A stretch of 64,000 bases of DNA from Acidobacteriota bacterium (GCA_021792795.1 JAJYUB010000014.1:1-64000); one strand, 5' to 3'. Shown: positions 22,431 to 58,855, counted from the first letter of the stretch. Notes: a model not told the origin generated them from the sequence alone. Numbers and translations are program-made.

Positions 22431-22490
22431 CTAATTCATTCGTAGATTAAACCGCGCCGGCAGCGAATTTGTCAACTAAACGATTCGTAG
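22431..22490 (-). promoter_or_regulatory. blaI-blaR1 promoter bracketed by two 15-base operators
   Basis: On the minus strand TTGACA (22475-22470) and TTTAAT (22451-22446) are 18 bases apart. Two matching sites, CTAAACGATTCGTAG (22476-22490) and CTAATTCATTCGTAG (22431-22445), share CTAA-N3-ATTCGTAG, a CTA...TAG dyad like BlaI-type boxes. One lies just upstream of the -35 and one just downstream of the -10. Confidence 0.68.
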
Positions 22491-22711
22491 TACTTGCAGC
22501 GGTGACCCTTCAAGGGCCATTTTTATGTCTACCGCAGCAACTTGGGGTGGCCCAGTTCTCCTGCCAGGTCCGTCCACTCTTTGTTTGCAACCCGATGGCC
22601 CCAGGTGGCACAGCCCAACCACGCATCCAGCGCCTTGGCGCGGCGCTGTTTCCATCTGGCCGTGGAATAGAATTGAGTCAGTGCTCCACGCGAACCGTGG
22701 CCCCGAGGAAA

Positions 22712-23599
22712 ATGCGTCCGGACTTGCAAGAGGCAATTCATTTACTCCAGAAGGACCCCGCGAGCGTTCCCAACGCTCTGCGGTTGCTGCAGGGGACGGT
22801 GTTCTCCTTCAGCATGAAGGTCTGCGGGCACCGCGAAGACGCGGAAGACACCATGCAGGACGTGCTGGTGAGCTCGCTGCCGCATCTGGCGAAGATCGAA
22901 GACCCGCGAGCGCTGTCGGTTTGGCTGTACACGGCGGCGAGGAACCGCTGCTGGCGCAATCGAAAGAAACAATCGTACCGTAAAACAGTTGCGCTGGAGG
23001 ACCTGCTGCCCGACGGCGCAGAGTTGGACGCGCTGCTGACAGCGGCTTCGGCCAGCCCGGAACAGCAGACCTTGAGCAACGAAGATCACCTCCTGGTGCA
23101 TGCGGCGGTGCTGCGACTTCCTCCGCAATATCGTCTTGTCCTGGTGCTGCACGACATGGAGGAACTGGACACGGAGCAGGTGGCGGCCGTACTTTCGCTA
23201 CAACCTGGGACGGTGCGGGTGCGGCTGCATCGGGCGCGGCTGCTGCTGCGCAAAGAGATGGAGAAGTTATTGAATCCGCAGCCAGTTGTTCCGCGCCGCA
23301 AGAAAAAATTCGGGCAGAAACCTCCGCGGGAGTGCATGGAGATCTTCGGAAACCTTTCCGAGTATCTGGATGGGCGGATGGAGAAAAAGAGTTGCGCGCA
23401 ATTGCAGGCGCACATCGACGCCTGCCCGGCATGCATCGCGTTCCTCTCTGACCTGAAGCTGGCAATCGACCGGTGCCGCGAACTGAATCTGCCGTTCGAC
23501 AGCGACACCTGCGCCTCGCTGCGACGGGTACTTGCCGAGGAGTATCTGCGACTGCTGCAAAGCGGCGCTTCCAAGGCGCCGGCTGCGGCAGCATCCTAA
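22712..23599 (+). CDS. ECF-type RNA polymerase sigma factor fused to a zinc-finger anti-sigma-like domain
   Basis: A 295-residue protein. Residues about 20-90 form sigma region 2 (HREDAEDTMQDVLVSSL, then WLYTAARNRCWR). Residues about 120-180 form region 4 (LRLPPQYRLVLVLHDMEEL, LQPGTVRVRLHRARLLLR). After a basic linker comes a 45-residue zf-HC2-like domain with a HIDACPAC zinc knuckle (about residues 230-238), the module normally found in a separate anti-sigma factor. ATG 22712 follows GAGGAAA closely. The efflux operon starts 93 bases downstream on the same strand, so it may be a target or a cotranscribed unit. Confidence 0.82.
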   Translation: MRPDLQEAIHLLQKDPASVPNALRLLQGTVFSFSMKVCGHREDAEDTMQDVLVSSLPHLAKIEDPRALSVWLYTAARNRCWRNRKKQSYRKTVALEDLLPDGAELDALLTAASASPEQQTLSNEDHLLVHAAVLRLPPQYRLVLVLHDMEELDTEQVAAVLSLQPGTVRVRLHRARLLLRKEMEKLLNPQPVVPRRKKKFGQKPPRECMEIFGNLSEYLDGRMEKKSCAQLQAHIDACPACIAFLSDLKLAIDRCRELNLPFDSDTCASLRRVLAEEYLRLLQSGASKAPAAAAS

Positions 23600-45531: not shown

Positions 45532-48500
45532 GTGAGGGATCGTAGCCGAATTCCGAATCTCTGGTTCGCCTGCCCTACATTTTGCAACCTGGCTGTTCCA
45601 TCGACTTCTGGGATTGCCGGGTGGATGGCGGTATGTTTTCTGCTGCTTTTCGCCGTCATGCCGGGCCCGGTCAGTTTCGGCCAGGACCCGGCGTCCGCCG
45701 AGAATCCTTCTCCTAAGCCATCCAGCTGGTTCCTCGCCGCAGGGGAGCCTGTCGAACTCAGACTGAAACCGGGTGAAAGTGAAACGCTTGCCTTTCAATG
45801 CAGTGGGGGAATGTACAGCGAAGTTCTGGTTCAGCAGATTCAAGGAATGAACCAGAGCCAACTGATTGATCCGGACGGAAAGGCATCGAAGCCTAGGGCC
45901 AACGATGGAGGCGCAGGGTCTGTCGAGCGAATCTCATTGTTGCCTGCCCGCAGTGGGACGTTTCATCTGCAAATCCAGCCCCGTGAGCGACACCTGCCAG
46001 TCGTCGTGCGGGTCACTCGGCTGCCGGAGCGGACCCCGCAGCCGCAAGACGCGGGCATTGTGCAGGCAGAGTCTGCGCTGGCGCAGGCGGAGTGGATTCG
46101 TCGGCATCCGAATCCAGCCTCGTCGCCAACTGCGTCCAGTCCAGCGGACGTGCTGGCGATGTACGATCGCGCATCCCGCTTGGCGCTGCAAGCCGGCGAT
46201 GAGACGCTTGCCGGAGAGTGCCTGATTGGGAAAGCCAGATACCAGATCTTCCGCATCGCACAGTATCGGCAAGGGGTACAAACTGCCACGCGAGCGATGC
46301 AACTGCTTGTGTCGGGTCCAGCGATGGGAGAGCAGGCCCTCGCGTGGAAAACTCTGGCTTCGGCACTCGCATTCGTCAGTCGATATGACCAAAGTATTGC
46401 TGCTTCCGAACGCGCGGTGGCGCTGTATGAGAAGACGGGCGACCTGTACTGGCAGGGCATTGTTCTTGGCAATCTTGCCGACTCCTATCGCGAGATGGGA
46501 GATACCACGAAAGCATTGGAGTCTGCCAAAGGGTCGCTGCAAGTCGCCCAGCAGCTTTCCGACGACTACGGGGTCGCCTTTACAGAGTCGACGATTGGCG
46601 AAATCTATCAGGGGCGCGGGCAATATCAACATGCACTGGACGCTTATTTTGCGGCGCTCGACACGCTGAATCGGGTCTCCTATCCCCAGGTATACGGAGA
46701 AGTCTGGACCAACCTGGGTCAACTGTACGTTCAACTGGGAGATTGGGGCCGTGCCGCGACCGCGTATGGCAACGCGCTTCCCGTTCTCCACAAAGATGGC
46801 GACGCGATCAACGAGATCGCGGTTCTGGGCCATCTTGGCGAGCTTGCTTTTCATGCCGGCCACCTGGCCCAGGCGCAGGCATACTTTCAAAAGGGGCTGG
46901 CCCTGGCAGAGAGCCAGCAGTTGCTTCGCGAGGAAACGTTCTTAAAGATTGGCCTGGCGCGGACCTGTCTGCGAATGCGCTGCGCCGAAGACCCGTCGAT
47001 CGCGCTCGCGCAGGCGCGGAATTCAGCGCAGCAGATTCATCAACTGGATGGCGAGGCGGCCGCAGATGCGGCGATCGGAAATTTGCTGGGTACGCGTTCC
47101 CGGAATGCCAAGGCAATGGATGCGTATATGCAGTCGGCGGCGCTATGGCGGCGCGTTTCCAACTCGGTCGAACTGGCTGCGGTAGAAGCCGACATGGCCC
47201 GCCTGGATGTTCGACAAGGCCAACTGCCGGCGGCCCGGCGCCAGATCTATGCGGCGCTCAGCGCGATTGAGACTTCCCGCGCCGACATCGATAGCGATGC
47301 ATTGCGGACATCGTATTTCACGTCCAAGCGCAATTACTACGATCTAGCCGTGAAAATTTTGATGCGGATGGATCGCCTATCCCCACGGCACGGGTATGCG
47401 GAAGAGGCGTGGAACATCGCGGAGCGGGCCCGCGCGCGCACGCTGCTGGACGACCTGCAGGAAGGCCCGCGAGACGACGCCTCGGTTTTCGATCCGCAAC
47501 TGGAGCATAAAGTTGCCGCTGTGGACGTGCAGATCCATGAGACGGAGGACCAACTGCTGGCCCTGGGACCTTCCAAAACCGGGATTGCGCATGCACGGCA
47601 GTTGCAACGAAGGATGCACGACTTGTTGCAGGCTTCCGATCAGTTGGAGGCAACCTTGTACGCCTCGAACCCCCGATATCGCGCAACGGCCCAGGCGGGC
47701 CCTATTTCAGCCGCTCAATTCAGGCGCGCCGTGCTCGACCGCAAGACCGCCCTGATTGAGTATTGGATGGGGAATGGGCACAGCTATCTTTGGGTGCTTA
47801 CCAGGGACGGCATGCGAAGCTTCCAACTGCCGGACCGCGCGGCCCTTGACAGCGCGGTCCATTCTTACCGGAAACTTATGCTGGCCCGGGACACCTATGT
47901 TCCCAGCGAAAGCATTCAAAATCGTCAGCTCAGGATCCGGCGATCGGATGCCAGGCTTTCCGCTGAATCCACAAGACTGGCGGGTATATTGTTGCCCTTC
48001 CGCCTGGATCCGCGGATCAACCGGCTATGGATTGTCGGAGATGGAAGCTTGTTGTCCATGCCTTTTGCTGCCTTGCAGCCCGCGCATCCCAATGCATCTT
48101 CAGGCCCATATCTGATGCAGCGATATTCCCTGGTCTACGAGCCGTCCGCCTCTACGATCGCCGCCCTCCTGGCCAGAGGGACGCCGGGGCCCGGCCGCGC
48201 GCGCATCGCCATCTTTGCCGACCCGGTGTACAGCGGCACCGACGAAAGAGTGGAAAGGGCTTCCGCGACTTCGTTGCCGCCAATGACCGAAAAGCCTGTC
48301 TTGCGTTTGGCGTTGTTCGAAACGCTATCGCAGTTGCCCCGGTTGCCTGCCTCGGGTCAGGAGGGCCTGGCGATTGAGCGGATTGCGGGAACAGCGAATA
48401 CATCTTTGTTTCTAGGTTTCGGCGCTTCCCCGAAAACCTTGGCGAGCATTGACTGGAAGTCGTATTCTGTAGCGCACTTTGCCGCCCACGCGATTGTGGA

Positions 48501-48918
48501 TACACAGCATCCGGAATTCTCCGGAATTGTTCTTTCCATGGTGCACCGCGATGGGACTCCCGCAGATGGCGTCCTGTGGCTGCATGATATTTATCGATTA
48601 ACAATCCCCGTTTCCCTGGTCACGCTCAGTGGATGCCAGACGGCGGACGGACAATCCATTCCAGGCGAAGGCATCAACGGCCTTGCCAGGGCGTTTCTTT
48701 ATGCTGGAGCACGCAGCGTGATTGGGACGCTTTGGGATTCCGAAGACAACAGCTCAAGTGAATTGATGAAAAGCTTCTATCGAGCATTGATTGCGCAACA
48801 CCTTACCCCGGTTGCGGCGCTACGTTCGGCGCAGCTTCAGGTACTCTCCGATGATGAGCACCAAGCGCCCTATTACTGGGCGGGATTTGTATTGGAAGGC
48901 GATGGACAGGGAAGCTAG
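45532..48918 (+). CDS. exported CHAT-domain protein with TPR repeats
   Basis: A 1128-residue protein. A hydrophobic segment at residues about 27-48 (AGWMAVCFLLLFAVMPG) serves as signal or anchor. A beta-rich domain follows to about residue 165, then roughly eight TPR units (about 180-560, e.g. GIVLGNLADSYREMGDTTKA, VWTNLGQLYVQLGDWGRAA) and a coiled coil. The C-terminal CHAT (caspase-HetF-associated-with-TPR) protease domain has the catalytic dyad His986 (FAAHAIVD) and Cys1035 (TLSGCQTADG), with GEGINGLARAFLYAGARSV after it. The start is GTG 45532 with only a weak ribosome site. Next to it lie a sigma factor and an anti-sigma-like gene, which together look like one regulated unit. Confidence 0.9.
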   Translation: MRDRSRIPNLWFACPTFCNLAVPSTSGIAGWMAVCFLLLFAVMPGPVSFGQDPASAENPSPKPSSWFLAAGEPVELRLKPGESETLAFQCSGGMYSEVLVQQIQGMNQSQLIDPDGKASKPRANDGGAGSVERISLLPARSGTFHLQIQPRERHLPVVVRVTRLPERTPQPQDAGIVQAESALAQAEWIRRHPNPASSPTASSPADVLAMYDRASRLALQAGDETLAGECLIGKARYQIFRIAQYRQGVQTATRAMQLLVSGPAMGEQALAWKTLASALAFVSRYDQSIAASERAVALYEKTGDLYWQGIVLGNLADSYREMGDTTKALESAKGSLQVAQQLSDDYGVAFTESTIGEIYQGRGQYQHALDAYFAALDTLNRVSYPQVYGEVWTNLGQLYVQLGDWGRAATAYGNALPVLHKDGDAINEIAVLGHLGELAFHAGHLAQAQAYFQKGLALAESQQLLREETFLKIGLARTCLRMRCAEDPSIALAQARNSAQQIHQLDGEAAADAAIGNLLGTRSRNAKAMDAYMQSAALWRRVSNSVELAAVEADMARLDVRQGQLPAARRQIYAALSAIETSRADIDSDALRTSYFTSKRNYYDLAVKILMRMDRLSPRHGYAEEAWNIAERARARTLLDDLQEGPRDDASVFDPQLEHKVAAVDVQIHETEDQLLALGPSKTGIAHARQLQRRMHDLLQASDQLEATLYASNPRYRATAQAGPISAAQFRRAVLDRKTALIEYWMGNGHSYLWVLTRDGMRSFQLPDRAALDSAVHSYRKLMLARDTYVPSESIQNRQLRIRRSDARLSAESTRLAGILLPFRLDPRINRLWIVGDGSLLSMPFAALQPAHPNASSGPYLMQRYSLVYEPSASTIAALLARGTPGPGRARIAIFADPVYSGTDERVERASATSLPPMTEKPVLRLALFETLSQLPRLPASGQEGLAIERIAGTANTSLFLGFGASPKTLASIDWKSYSVAHFAAHAIVDTQHPEFSGIVLSMVHRDGTPADGVLWLHDIYRLTIPVSLVTLSGCQTADGQSIPGEGINGLARAFLYAGARSVIGTLWDSEDNSSSELMKSFYRALIAQHLTPVAALRSAQLQVLSDDEHQAPYYWAGFVLEGDGQGS

Positions 48919-48939
48919 ATTGGTTCCTAGGACTGCTAC

Positions 48940-49587
48940 GTGGGACAGTTGAACGCAAGAATGCCTTGGATGCTGGACAAAAGCGGACTGGAAAGTCTGC
49001 TGAACGCGCTGCATCCCGACCGGGAACAGGCCAGCCATGCCTACGAGGCCCTGCGTCGTCGTCTCATCCGTTTTTTTGAATGGAACCGCGCAGATTTGCC
49101 CGAAGATCTGGCGGACGAAACCTTGGATCGGCTGGCGAGGCGCCTCTGTTCCCCAGGAGAAGCCATTCTGGAGCCGTTGAAGTTTGCCTCTGGGATTGCG
49201 CGATTGGTGCTGAAGGAGCACAGGCGGAATACACATCGCAAGGAAGAAGCCTTGGCAACGATGCTGCAGCGCGGCATGGAGGCAGCACGCAGAGAGCGAG
49301 AGCAGCGCGAACTGGAGGAATATGCCTCGGTATTGGAGAAGTGCCTGGAGGCGGTCCCTGAACAGAGCCGGAACCTGGTCCGCCGCTACTTTGGCGCGGA
49401 AAGCCGCGTCCAGATTCTGCGCCGGCAAGAGCTGGCGCAGGAGTATGGGATCTCTATAAATGCTTTGCGAAATCGAGTGATGCGTATCCGGGGGGAACTG
49501 GAAAAAAACTGTTCGGCGCTGCTGGCCGAAAAAGTTTTTACTGGCGACAAGATGGATCGCTCAAAATTGTCACTCTATGATGAATAG
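48940..49587 (+). CDS. ECF-type sigma factor-like protein linked to the CHAT gene
   Basis: A 215-residue protein. The N-terminal half (FEWNRADLPEDLADETLDRLARR) resembles a reduced sigma region 2, the C-terminal half (LRRQELAQEYGISINALRNRVMRIR) is a region 4 helix-turn-helix. The -35 recognition helix seems intact, but the -10 part is shorter than in standard ECF factors, so divergent DNA recognition is possible. GTG 48940 was chosen because AGGA lies 7 bases upstream; ATG 48961 is an alternative. The gene starts 21 bases after the CHAT stop. Confidence 0.75.
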   Translation: MGQLNARMPWMLDKSGLESLLNALHPDREQASHAYEALRRRLIRFFEWNRADLPEDLADETLDRLARRLCSPGEAILEPLKFASGIARLVLKEHRRNTHRKEEALATMLQRGMEAARREREQRELEEYASVLEKCLEAVPEQSRNLVRRYFGAESRVQILRRQELAQEYGISINALRNRVMRIRGELEKNCSALLAEKVFTGDKMDRSKLSLYDE

Positions 49588-49610
49588 TTCATTTCCTGCT
49601 TGAGAAATCG

Positions 49611-50513
49611 ATGGACACTCACTTGAACAGTCGGCAATTGGCATTGCGGTATCTTTTGGATGAGATGTCTTTCGACGAGCGGGCCGGTGTCGATGACCGA
49701 CTGATCGCAGATCAGGAGTTTTCCGACAGCTTTCAGGAAGCTCAATACGATTTGATCGATGCTTACGTCGCAAACGAGCTCCCCATCGACATCCGTAAAC
49801 GAGTGGAGCGCGCACTCCTTGCTGGAAAGAGCGGGGAAAGTTCGCTTCGCCTGGCAGTCGCAATACAACAAGGGAGGGAGAAAGATCGCAGACGTGGCTC
49901 CGCATTGGGGCTGCTGCCGGCCGCCCGGAAGGGAGTGCCGAGAGTCCGCCGGAAATTTTTTTGGTTTGCTTTCCCGGCCTCTGTCGCCGCCTGTCTCCTT
50001 CTGGCGCTTGGTTTCATCCGCTGGCGTCAGTCGGCCGTTCCCCAGATGGCCCGACAGCTACGGGGAGGGGCATCGATCGCAGCCGGCAGTCCAACAGTTG
50101 TGAAACCCAGTTCCGTCCGGCCGTTGGCGCCCGCAGAAAATTCAAGTCGCGAGCATCCGTCTTTTCAGCAGCCGATGGGCATACTGGTTGTTGCCATGCC
50201 GATGCAAACCATGCGTGGAGCGAACCCGGTCACGATCCAGCTTCACCCCGGCATGGATCGCATCGAGGTGCAATGGCCGCTCCATGCCGATGCGCCGTCT
50301 GGATCCTACACCTTGGAAATCGCTTCCGGTCGGTCAAGCATGGCTGCCGTGCCGCAGATCGGACCGCTGACAACCATTGGCGGCATTCGCGTGGCCAGGT
50401 TTCGCGTTTCTGCGGACGAACTGGCGCCTGGCGAATTCCTCTTTCGGCTCCATGTGGCGGATGGACCCAATGACACGCCGATCGCGGAAACCGCCGTCCG
50501 CGTTTCTCGTTGA
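49611..50513 (+). CDS. anti-sigma-factor-like membrane protein
   Basis: A 300-residue single-pass protein. The cytoplasmic part (residues 1-115) is helical, with LALRYLLDEMSFDERAGVDDRLIAD, a phrase like the ASD-type domains that hold sigma factors. One transmembrane helix spans about residues 116-137. The outside part (about 140-300) has a flexible linker and a C-terminal beta-sandwich (VTIQLHPGMDRIEVQW...FRLHVAD). No zinc motif is present. It begins 23 bases after the sigma-like gene, and a terminator follows, so it closes the three-gene unit. Confidence 0.72.
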   Translation: MDTHLNSRQLALRYLLDEMSFDERAGVDDRLIADQEFSDSFQEAQYDLIDAYVANELPIDIRKRVERALLAGKSGESSLRLAVAIQQGREKDRRRGSALGLLPAARKGVPRVRRKFFWFAFPASVAACLLLALGFIRWRQSAVPQMARQLRGGASIAAGSPTVVKPSSVRPLAPAENSSREHPSFQQPMGILVVAMPMQTMRGANPVTIQLHPGMDRIEVQWPLHADAPSGSYTLEIASGRSSMAAVPQIGPLTTIGGIRVARFRVSADELAPGEFLFRLHVADGPNDTPIAETAVRVSR

Positions 50514-50553
50514 AGCAACAGCCAACGTTCCGTCGGGTCCCTTTGCGGGCAAA

Positions 50554-50581
50554 ACAGTTTGAAGCGCTCAAGCTGTTTTTG
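50554..50581 (+). terminator. intrinsic terminator of the CHAT-sigma-anti-sigma operon
   Basis: Nine-base stem ACAGTTTGA (50554-50562) with TCAAGCTGT (50568-50576), one G-T pair, loop AGCGC, then TTTTG. Confidence 0.8.
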
Positions 50582-50671
50582 TTCTCCGAGGCCGCAATAT
50601 GGCCCCGGAGAACGCGGTGTTCGTGCGCTGGGGTGGCCAGGAAGCGGCGAGCTTGAACGAAACCGGACAGT

Positions 50672-58159: not shown

Positions 58160-58855
58160 ATGAATTTACACGCAGTTCTGATCCTCTTTCAAATCGTGGT
58201 GCTGCTCTTTGCCATCAGCCTGCACGAAGCGTCGCATGGCTGGATGGCATGGCGGCTGGGCGACCCCACGGCCCGTATGCTGGGCCGGGTCACGCTGAAC
58301 CCCATCAAGCACATCGATCCGTTCGGGACCATCCTGATCCCGCTGTTGTGTGTGTATGCCGGCTTCCCGCTGATCGGCTGGGCCAAGCCTACGCCGGTGA
58401 CGACGCGCAACTTTAAAAACATTAAGCGGGATGACATTCTGACCACGCTGGCCGGACCAGCCAGCAACCTGTTGACGGCGATTGTGGCGACCATGATCCT
58501 GCTGGTGCTGAAGCTCGCCAGCGCGCCCACGGTAATTGCCGGGATGATGGCCGCGCAAATGGGAATGATCGACCCCAACGTGATGCACGGCAGCCCGATT
58601 CTGTTTCCACTGACGCTTCTGCTGTACTACGCCGTGTTGTTGAACCTGATCCTGATGGCCTTCAACCTGATCCCGTTGCCGCCGCTCGATGGCAGCCATG
58701 TCGTGCGCCACATGCTGCCGTACAACTGGCTGCGGATATATGACTCGATCGGCATGATCGGCCTGATCCTGGTGTTCCTTTTTGGCGGCCGGTTTATCGG
58801 TATGATCGTCAGCCCGATGCTGAACGTGTTCAACCATATCCTGCTTGGCATGTAG
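58160..58855 (+). CDS. site-2 protease family (M50) membrane metalloprotease
   Basis: A 231-residue intramembrane protease with five to six helices. The zinc motif HEASH is in helix 2 (AISLHEASHGWMAW) and the third ligand motif NLIPLPPLDGSH is in the later helix. It is the short YwhC-like type without a PDZ domain. ATG 58160 was chosen at the start of the first helix. Likely substrates are membrane-bound regulators; an anti-sigma-like membrane protein is encoded 8 kb upstream, but a link is only a guess. Confidence 0.88.
   Translation: MNLHAVLILFQIVVLLFAISLHEASHGWMAWRLGDPTARMLGRVTLNPIKHIDPFGTILIPLLCVYAGFPLIGWAKPTPVTTRNFKNIKRDDILTTLAGPASNLLTAIVATMILLVLKLASAPTVIAGMMAAQMGMIDPNVMHGSPILFPLTLLLYYAVLLNLILMAFNLIPLPPLDGSHVVRHMLPYNWLRIYDSIGMIGLILVFLFGGRFIGMIVSPMLNVFNHILLGM

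Follow-up and report, generated by a model that had tools for sequence, protein, structure and literature searches.

A 64,000-nucleotide stretch of DNA from an Acidobacteriota bacterium (GCA_021792795.1, JAJYUB010000014.1:1-64000; hereafter, the window) carries three consecutive genes on its + strand, encoding a TPR-CHAT protein, a sigma factor resembling the extracytoplasmic function (ECF) class and a membrane protein with anti-sigma-like features, followed by a terminator-like hairpin. We find that these genes form a module conserved across the phylum, and we propose that the CHAT protein may gate the release of the sigma factor. An earlier note on this DNA, made from the sequence alone, had described three genes in tight order closed by a terminator, and this layout holds, with gaps of 21 nt between the CHAT and sigma genes and 23 nt between the sigma and membrane protein genes. 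The features of the locus are as follows.

45532..48918, + strand: TPR-CHAT protease P0001, probably exported or anchored; 1128 aa from the GTG at 45532
48487..48489, + strand: codon of catalytic His986, from the sequence and an invariant alignment column in relatives
48634..48636, + strand: codon of catalytic Cys1035, from the sequence and an invariant alignment column in relatives
48940..49587, + strand: ECF-type sigma factor P0002; 215 aa, GTG start
49611..50513, + strand: membrane anti-sigma-like protein P0003; 300 aa
50214..50219, + strand: codons of R202-G203, candidate CHAT scissile bond proposed from Arg conservation and a shuffle test
about 50547..50584, + strand: terminator-like hairpin with a U-rich 3' arm; folding free energy (dG) -16.6 kcal/mol, z -2.1

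P0001 belongs unambiguously to the CHAT protease family PF12770 (E 3.4e-59; 201.1 bits against a gathering cut-off of 24) and also matches TPR_12 (E 3e-24). Position 986 holds His and position 1035 Cys, and this dyad, already called intact in the earlier note, is invariant in an alignment of all 106 CHATs linked to such loci, forms fused to an anti-sigma included. An AlphaFold2 model built from 35 sequences (mean predicted local distance difference test score, pLDDT, 83.9; predicted template modelling score 0.80) places an N-terminal hydrophobic, signal- or transmembrane-like helix at residues 27-41, a small beta domain at 74-167, a long TPR superhelix at 171-616 and the CHAT domain at 739-1122. 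The GTG start of the gene may be too early; an ATG at 45625 (residue 32), directly before the signal-like stretch, is equally possible. A hydrophobic N-terminal segment is present in 75 of 85 standalone CHATs, compared with a background of 48% among long open reading frames, and most of the 10 proteins without one look like mis-set starts or truncations. These segments, together with the position of CHAT after the transmembrane helix in the fused proteins described below, imply that CHAT shares a side of the membrane with the anti-sigma ectodomain; the protein is probably exported or anchored, as the note had it. Four linked CHATs (L019:2236-6006(-), L022:7463-10975(-), L023:10308-13958(-) and L027:4959-8234(+)) carry an N-terminal stretch that appears PDZ-like by eye (GVVVESI.KN..ADKAGLQEGD); the first of them gave no Pfam PDZ match.

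The sigma factor P0002 matches TIGR02989 (E 5.5e-12) and TIGR02937 (E 4.5e-9), both under the curated cut-offs; the latter match spans residues 33-189 and scores 36.1 bits against a cut-off of 42.9. A profile of P0002 relatives retrieves solved ECF sigma factors, the nearest being RpoE of 2q1z (E 1.1e-6). These matches point to an ECF-like protein, as previously suggested, which appears divergent rather than clearly "reduced", the term used in the note. Elsewhere in the window, an open frame at 22469-23599(+) matches the sigma profile weakly (E 2e-6) and is probably an unrelated sigma factor.

For P0003, an AlphaFold2 model from 49 sequences predicts a helical N-terminal domain (residues 2-98, pLDDT mostly >90), a transmembrane helix (123-142), a disordered linker and a beta-sandwich (190-299, pLDDT mostly >90), in line with the single-pass protein, anti-sigma-like inside and sandwich-like outside, that had been envisaged. 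It matches the NCBIfam model "antisigma" (E 2.7e-6, under the cut-off). P0003 itself does not resemble a zinc-type anti-sigma domain (zf-HC2 E 0.11; its sole Cys lies within the transmembrane helix), and zf-HC2 is matched by 17 of its 49 relatives (best 7.5e-7). An anti-sigma profile compared with PDB sequences gave no significant match, an actinobacterial membrane protein chain, 3hug_B, appearing at E 0.2. Taken with the gene order and the architecture, the sub-cut-off match suggests an anti-sigma-like protein. The ectodomain is an immunoglobulin (Ig)-like sandwich, poorly conserved apart from R202. Foldseek and VIA-align assigned it to a generic Ig/cupredoxin-like sandwich (best Z 9.1), and the chagasin-like inhibitor EhICP2 scored Z 6.1; we took neither as homology.

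The three genes form a conserved, phylum-wide module. When 396 genomes of the phylum were searched with a sigma profile, scores dropped sharply below about 86 bits, defining a strong group that occupies about 48 genomes and 20 family codes (hand count from the table), often with several paralogues per genome. The 143 distinct sigma relatives come nearly all from Acidobacteriota, their sigma genes are with few exceptions followed by a membrane protein gene, and an anti-sigma-like gene was adjacent or fused in 81 of the 85 strong loci examined. Within the window's own family, sigma relatives occur in 10 of 150 genomes, several of them with CHAT and the membrane protein alongside. The earlier note had proposed a survey of conserved synteny, with an absence of co-occurrence counting against its model; we found a CHAT gene within 5 kb in 54 of 73 full-flank sigma loci (within 300 nt in 39), compared with 2 of 20 control loci of other ECF sigma factors from the same phylum (Fisher p 2.7e-7). 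In a partly overlapping, named set of GTDB genomes, CHAT lies within 5 kb of the sigma gene in 38 of 45 loci; nearly every title there is Acidobacteriota, and the others are a Chthoniobacterales bin and a bin titled Deltaproteobacteria.

Abundance of CHAT genes is unlikely to explain this proximity. Across 20 genomes we counted between 1 and 65 CHAT genes each, so that chance adjacency would fall well below the observed rate even in CHAT-rich genomes; for 65 CHAT genes, 8.3 Mb and a 10-kb span it would be about 8%. The host assembly (4.04 Mb, 98% complete, from a soil bacterium) contains the window CHAT as its only CHAT gene, which means that its position beside the sigma gene is not due to CHAT abundance. 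We abandoned the idea that genomes have a single CHAT for each module and none besides, as some carry 60-65 CHAT genes. Two genomes of a single Acidobacteriota family, G196 and G207, show a striking expansion to 60 and 65 copies.

Natural fusions tie the parts of the module together. At 14 distinct loci, with duplicates removed (L106, L109, L110, L116, L135, L174, L205, L207, L210, L212, L217, L218, L220 and L230), an anti-sigma N-terminus, a transmembrane helix, TPRs and CHAT occur in one chain beside the sigma gene. None of these 14 loci has a separate anti-sigma gene, as opposed to 92 of 93 unfused CHAT loci; in the fused proteins CHAT follows the transmembrane helix and the sandwich is absent. 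On the sigma tree the fused state requires at least four changes on well-supported branches, which indicates that fusion or fission happened repeatedly. Pairwise distances also co-vary (sigma-CHAT r 0.52, sigma-anti-sigma 0.64, anti-sigma-CHAT 0.53; permutation maxima 0.15-0.18), partly owing to shared ancestry.

R202 of P0003 lies in the loop after the first sandwich strand and is the most conserved residue of the ectodomain. Its alignment column holds Arg in all 88 sandwich-bearing anti-sigmas adjoining a standalone CHAT, and in 85 of these the Arg precedes Gly, Ser, Asp, Ala or Asn; two apparent exceptions, L172 and L177, are frameshifted or fused, with the sandwich absent. Alignment programs may stack Arg residues artificially where a loop is rich in gaps, so we tested the loop independently of the column: Arg followed by one of these five residues occurs in 86 of 88 loops, whereas shuffles of the same ectodomains gave 26 on average and at most 39. 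Separase cleaves with Arg at the P1 position, a precedent for R202. The fused proteins carry a conserved juxtamembrane RPxExRISxfxYAP, after which 13 of 14 have [T/L/I]R[G/S], close to the outer end of the transmembrane helix; this second motif may represent the candidate R202 scissile motif in cis.

Some members of the sigma/anti-sigma family that lack a CHAT have other notable neighbours. CHAT-less members adjoin a C14 caspase (L102:3760-4569(-)), a C11 clostripain (L124:8376-9098(-)), a trypsin-like protease with tachylectin repeats (L063:3248-5017(-)) or S10 and S46 peptidases (L078:1406-5363(-)), as if the neighbouring protease were interchangeable. Several of these caspase-, clostripain-, trypsin-like and similar substitutes come from Arg/Lys-specific families, and the Arg is kept in the anti-sigmas of L063 (RG), L124 (RN) and L078 (RA). 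Two other CHAT-less pairs precede genes for very large proteins bearing Ig-like repeats of the He_PIG, Big_2 and TIG types (L068:1205-5779(-) and L021:11526-15470(+)). Three more (L122:3235-6939(+), L092:7716-11117(-) and L089:7793-9649(-)) lie directly downstream of same-strand Ser/Thr kinase genes, two of the three kinases having TPRs.

The earlier note held that this combination had no established function, a statement that needs correction in light of two precedents. Foldseek searches with the CHAT model gave human separase, DdvA (8rw5 and 8rot) and Csx29/Craspase as top matches (8rw5 at E 1.7e-13), and Csx29 aligned over about 600 residues (Z 22-23); sequence searches of the PDB with CHAT were swamped by TPR matches. 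The DdvS/DdvA pair of Myxococcus xanthus is reportedly the subject of Bernal-Bernal et al. 2018. The ECF sigma factor DdvS has DdvA as its anti-sigma, and the signal that inactivates DdvA is reported as not known (PMC4374960). Both 8rot and 8rw5, which bear the molecule name "CHAT domain-containing protein", contain this solved transmembrane anti-sigma, and DdvA thereby provides a precedent, as a fusion, for joining CHAT to an anti-sigma. The window module likewise combines an ECF-like sigma factor and a transmembrane anti-sigma-like protein with TPRs and a CHAT fold bearing an intact dyad. However, DdvA is one chain of 991 aa, whereas the window encodes anti-sigma and CHAT separately, the former with its own Ig-like ectodomain; the single chain of anti-sigma domain, transmembrane helix, TPR and CHAT is absent from the window and present in the 14 fused relatives. 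These relatives share the architecture of DdvA, but the CHAT resemblance is weak (E 0.04-0.09) and their anti-sigma domain gave no match to DdvA. Aligned with the fused proteins, DdvA retains both residues, His within "ATHG" and Cys within "AACEGG", a homology that at E 0.04 is tentative in detail.

The second precedent is type III-E CRISPR, in which a TPR-CHAT protease (Csx29), an ECF sigma factor (CASP-sigma) and a sigma inhibitor (Csx30) share one locus (Craspase, DiCASP), and cleavage of Csx30 has been proposed to free the sigma factor (PMC10028731); cleavage of a sigma inhibitor by a CHAT protease is thus already on record there. The window module likewise pairs a TPR-CHAT protein, an ECF-like sigma factor and a putative sigma inhibitor, and matches in CHAT fold. 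It differs in that its protease is of an export type, its inhibitor-like protein sits in the membrane and does not share the architecture of Csx30, and no CRISPR array is seen, with no direct repeats of at least 22 nt within 120 nt across the 64-kb window. Craspase models score far below their cut-offs on the window proteins (NF041237, 11.3 bits against 300; NF041236, 21.8 against 100). By the features tested, the module is neither DdvA, not being one chain, nor a CASP module; it is a split, membrane-bound, CRISPR-less variant of the DdvA/Craspase theme. A literature search with partial coverage found no paper describing the split form. The DegS-RseA-RpoE and RsiW systems have a membrane anti-sigma with an extracytoplasmic region and a site-1 cut followed by M50 site-2 cleavage, as we propose for the module, but here the site-1 protease would be a module-encoded CHAT cysteine protease instead of a PDZ serine protease. 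Separase, the top structural match, shares clan CD and a TPR-like array joined to a caspase-fold domain, but is eukaryotic, cytosolic or nuclear, and has no sigma link.

Building on the observed gene set, architecture, conservation, fusions and dyad, we propose that CHAT is an extracytoplasmic site-1 protease that cuts after R202, making the module a CHAT-gated ECF sigma/anti-sigma switch, a reading to which we assign a probability of roughly 0.55. At rest, the inner domain of P0003 would hold the sigma factor at the membrane. An envelope signal would be sensed by the TPR and N-terminal domains of the exported CHAT protein, whose His986/Cys1035 protease would then cut the P0003 ectodomain, most likely after R202 in the first sandwich loop. 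The trimmed P0003 would be finished by a site-2 protease of the M50 type, releasing the sigma factor, as in DegS-RseA-RseP; the fused relatives would undergo an equivalent cut in cis, with their juxtamembrane [T/L/I]RG motif as the site. The host genome encodes an M50 peptidase on another contig (E 1.8e-63), weak evidence for a site-2 step because all 14 control genomes also have one. A second, smaller M50 peptidase of the site-2 type lies at 58193-58720(+) in the window, about 8 kb downstream of the module.

Several observations weigh against a CHAT-gated switch with a cut at R202. CHAT is not obligatory, since roughly one sigma/anti-sigma pair in four lacks a CHAT gene at a distance of up to 5 kb. 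Among the CHAT-less full-flank loci, 12 of 19 scored keep the Arg, and R202 could therefore be a structural residue; the Arg was lost four times on the tree, always in CHAT-less lineages, too few events for a significant phylogenetic test. Arg specificity is a presumption for CHATs; those known differ in their P1 preference. A dyad search of 85 regions upstream of modules gave no convincing -35/-10 pair as a sigma promoter motif; the best dyad, TTGA-N17-TTG, was rejected as it falls mostly in coding sequence. The CHAT-less pairs would also suit a role for CHAT and its TPRs as a sensor or adaptor that binds the ectodomain and frees the sigma factor by conformational change, or tunes another protease, with the dyad serving another substrate. 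This role would also fit DdvA, whose inactivating signal is reported as not known and for which the text examined reports no proteolysis (PMC4374960). We consider it fairly unlikely, however, given that His and Cys are invariant in all 106 CHATs, fused forms included, that DdvA keeps both in alignment, and that an Arg-small motif is conserved in two unrelated ectodomain contexts.

CHAT might instead be the output, with the sigma/anti-sigma pair sensing alone and driving expression of a protease that cuts other envelope or secreted proteins. The operon layout fits CHAT as a target gene, and CHAT-less pairs can precede other exported proteins (He_PIG, TIG, peptidases). The anti-sigma-CHAT fusions make CHAT part of the regulator itself, and modules share no common upstream sigma motif; we regard this alternative as unlikely. 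The link to stress-induced death or defence raised in the earlier note, in which CHAT would trigger death or an anti-phage output through the sigma factor, draws on analogy with Craspase and with DdvS, which controls a CRISPR locus. It found no support here: PADLOC returned only a TPR match for CHAT and called no defence system, the window lacks CRISPR-like repeats, no toxin-like gene was seen among the flanking genes scanned, and the protease is probably exported, all of which makes such a module very improbable. Sigma and anti-sigma scores below curated cut-offs might suggest a neighbourhood accident or decayed genes, an explanation refuted by the controlled phylum-wide synteny, the fusions, the invariant catalytic residues and the sole CHAT of the genome, and to which we give almost no weight.

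More broadly, and only tentatively, CHATs may be dedicated site-1 proteases of phylum-wide membrane sigma switches, cutting after one conserved Arg. On this view the split, fused DdvA-like and CRISPR Craspase forms would all derive from a single CHAT/anti-sigma/ECF theme by variation, and proteases such as clostripain-, caspase- and trypsin-like ones would have been swapped in at some CHAT-less loci; we hold this generalization to be possible but somewhat doubtful.

In summary, few bacterial CHAT proteases have a known natural role, and the module offers a substrate candidate in the linked anti-sigma, a candidate bond at R202-G203 and a readout in sigma activity. It links Myxococcus DdvA and CRISPR Craspase, which were previously without a known relative of this form, and raises the possibility that DdvA is an anti-sigma that cleaves itself. 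The module is also a CRISPR-less relative, and the Csx29-Csx30-CASP-sigma arm of type III-E CRISPR could have arisen from it or alongside it.

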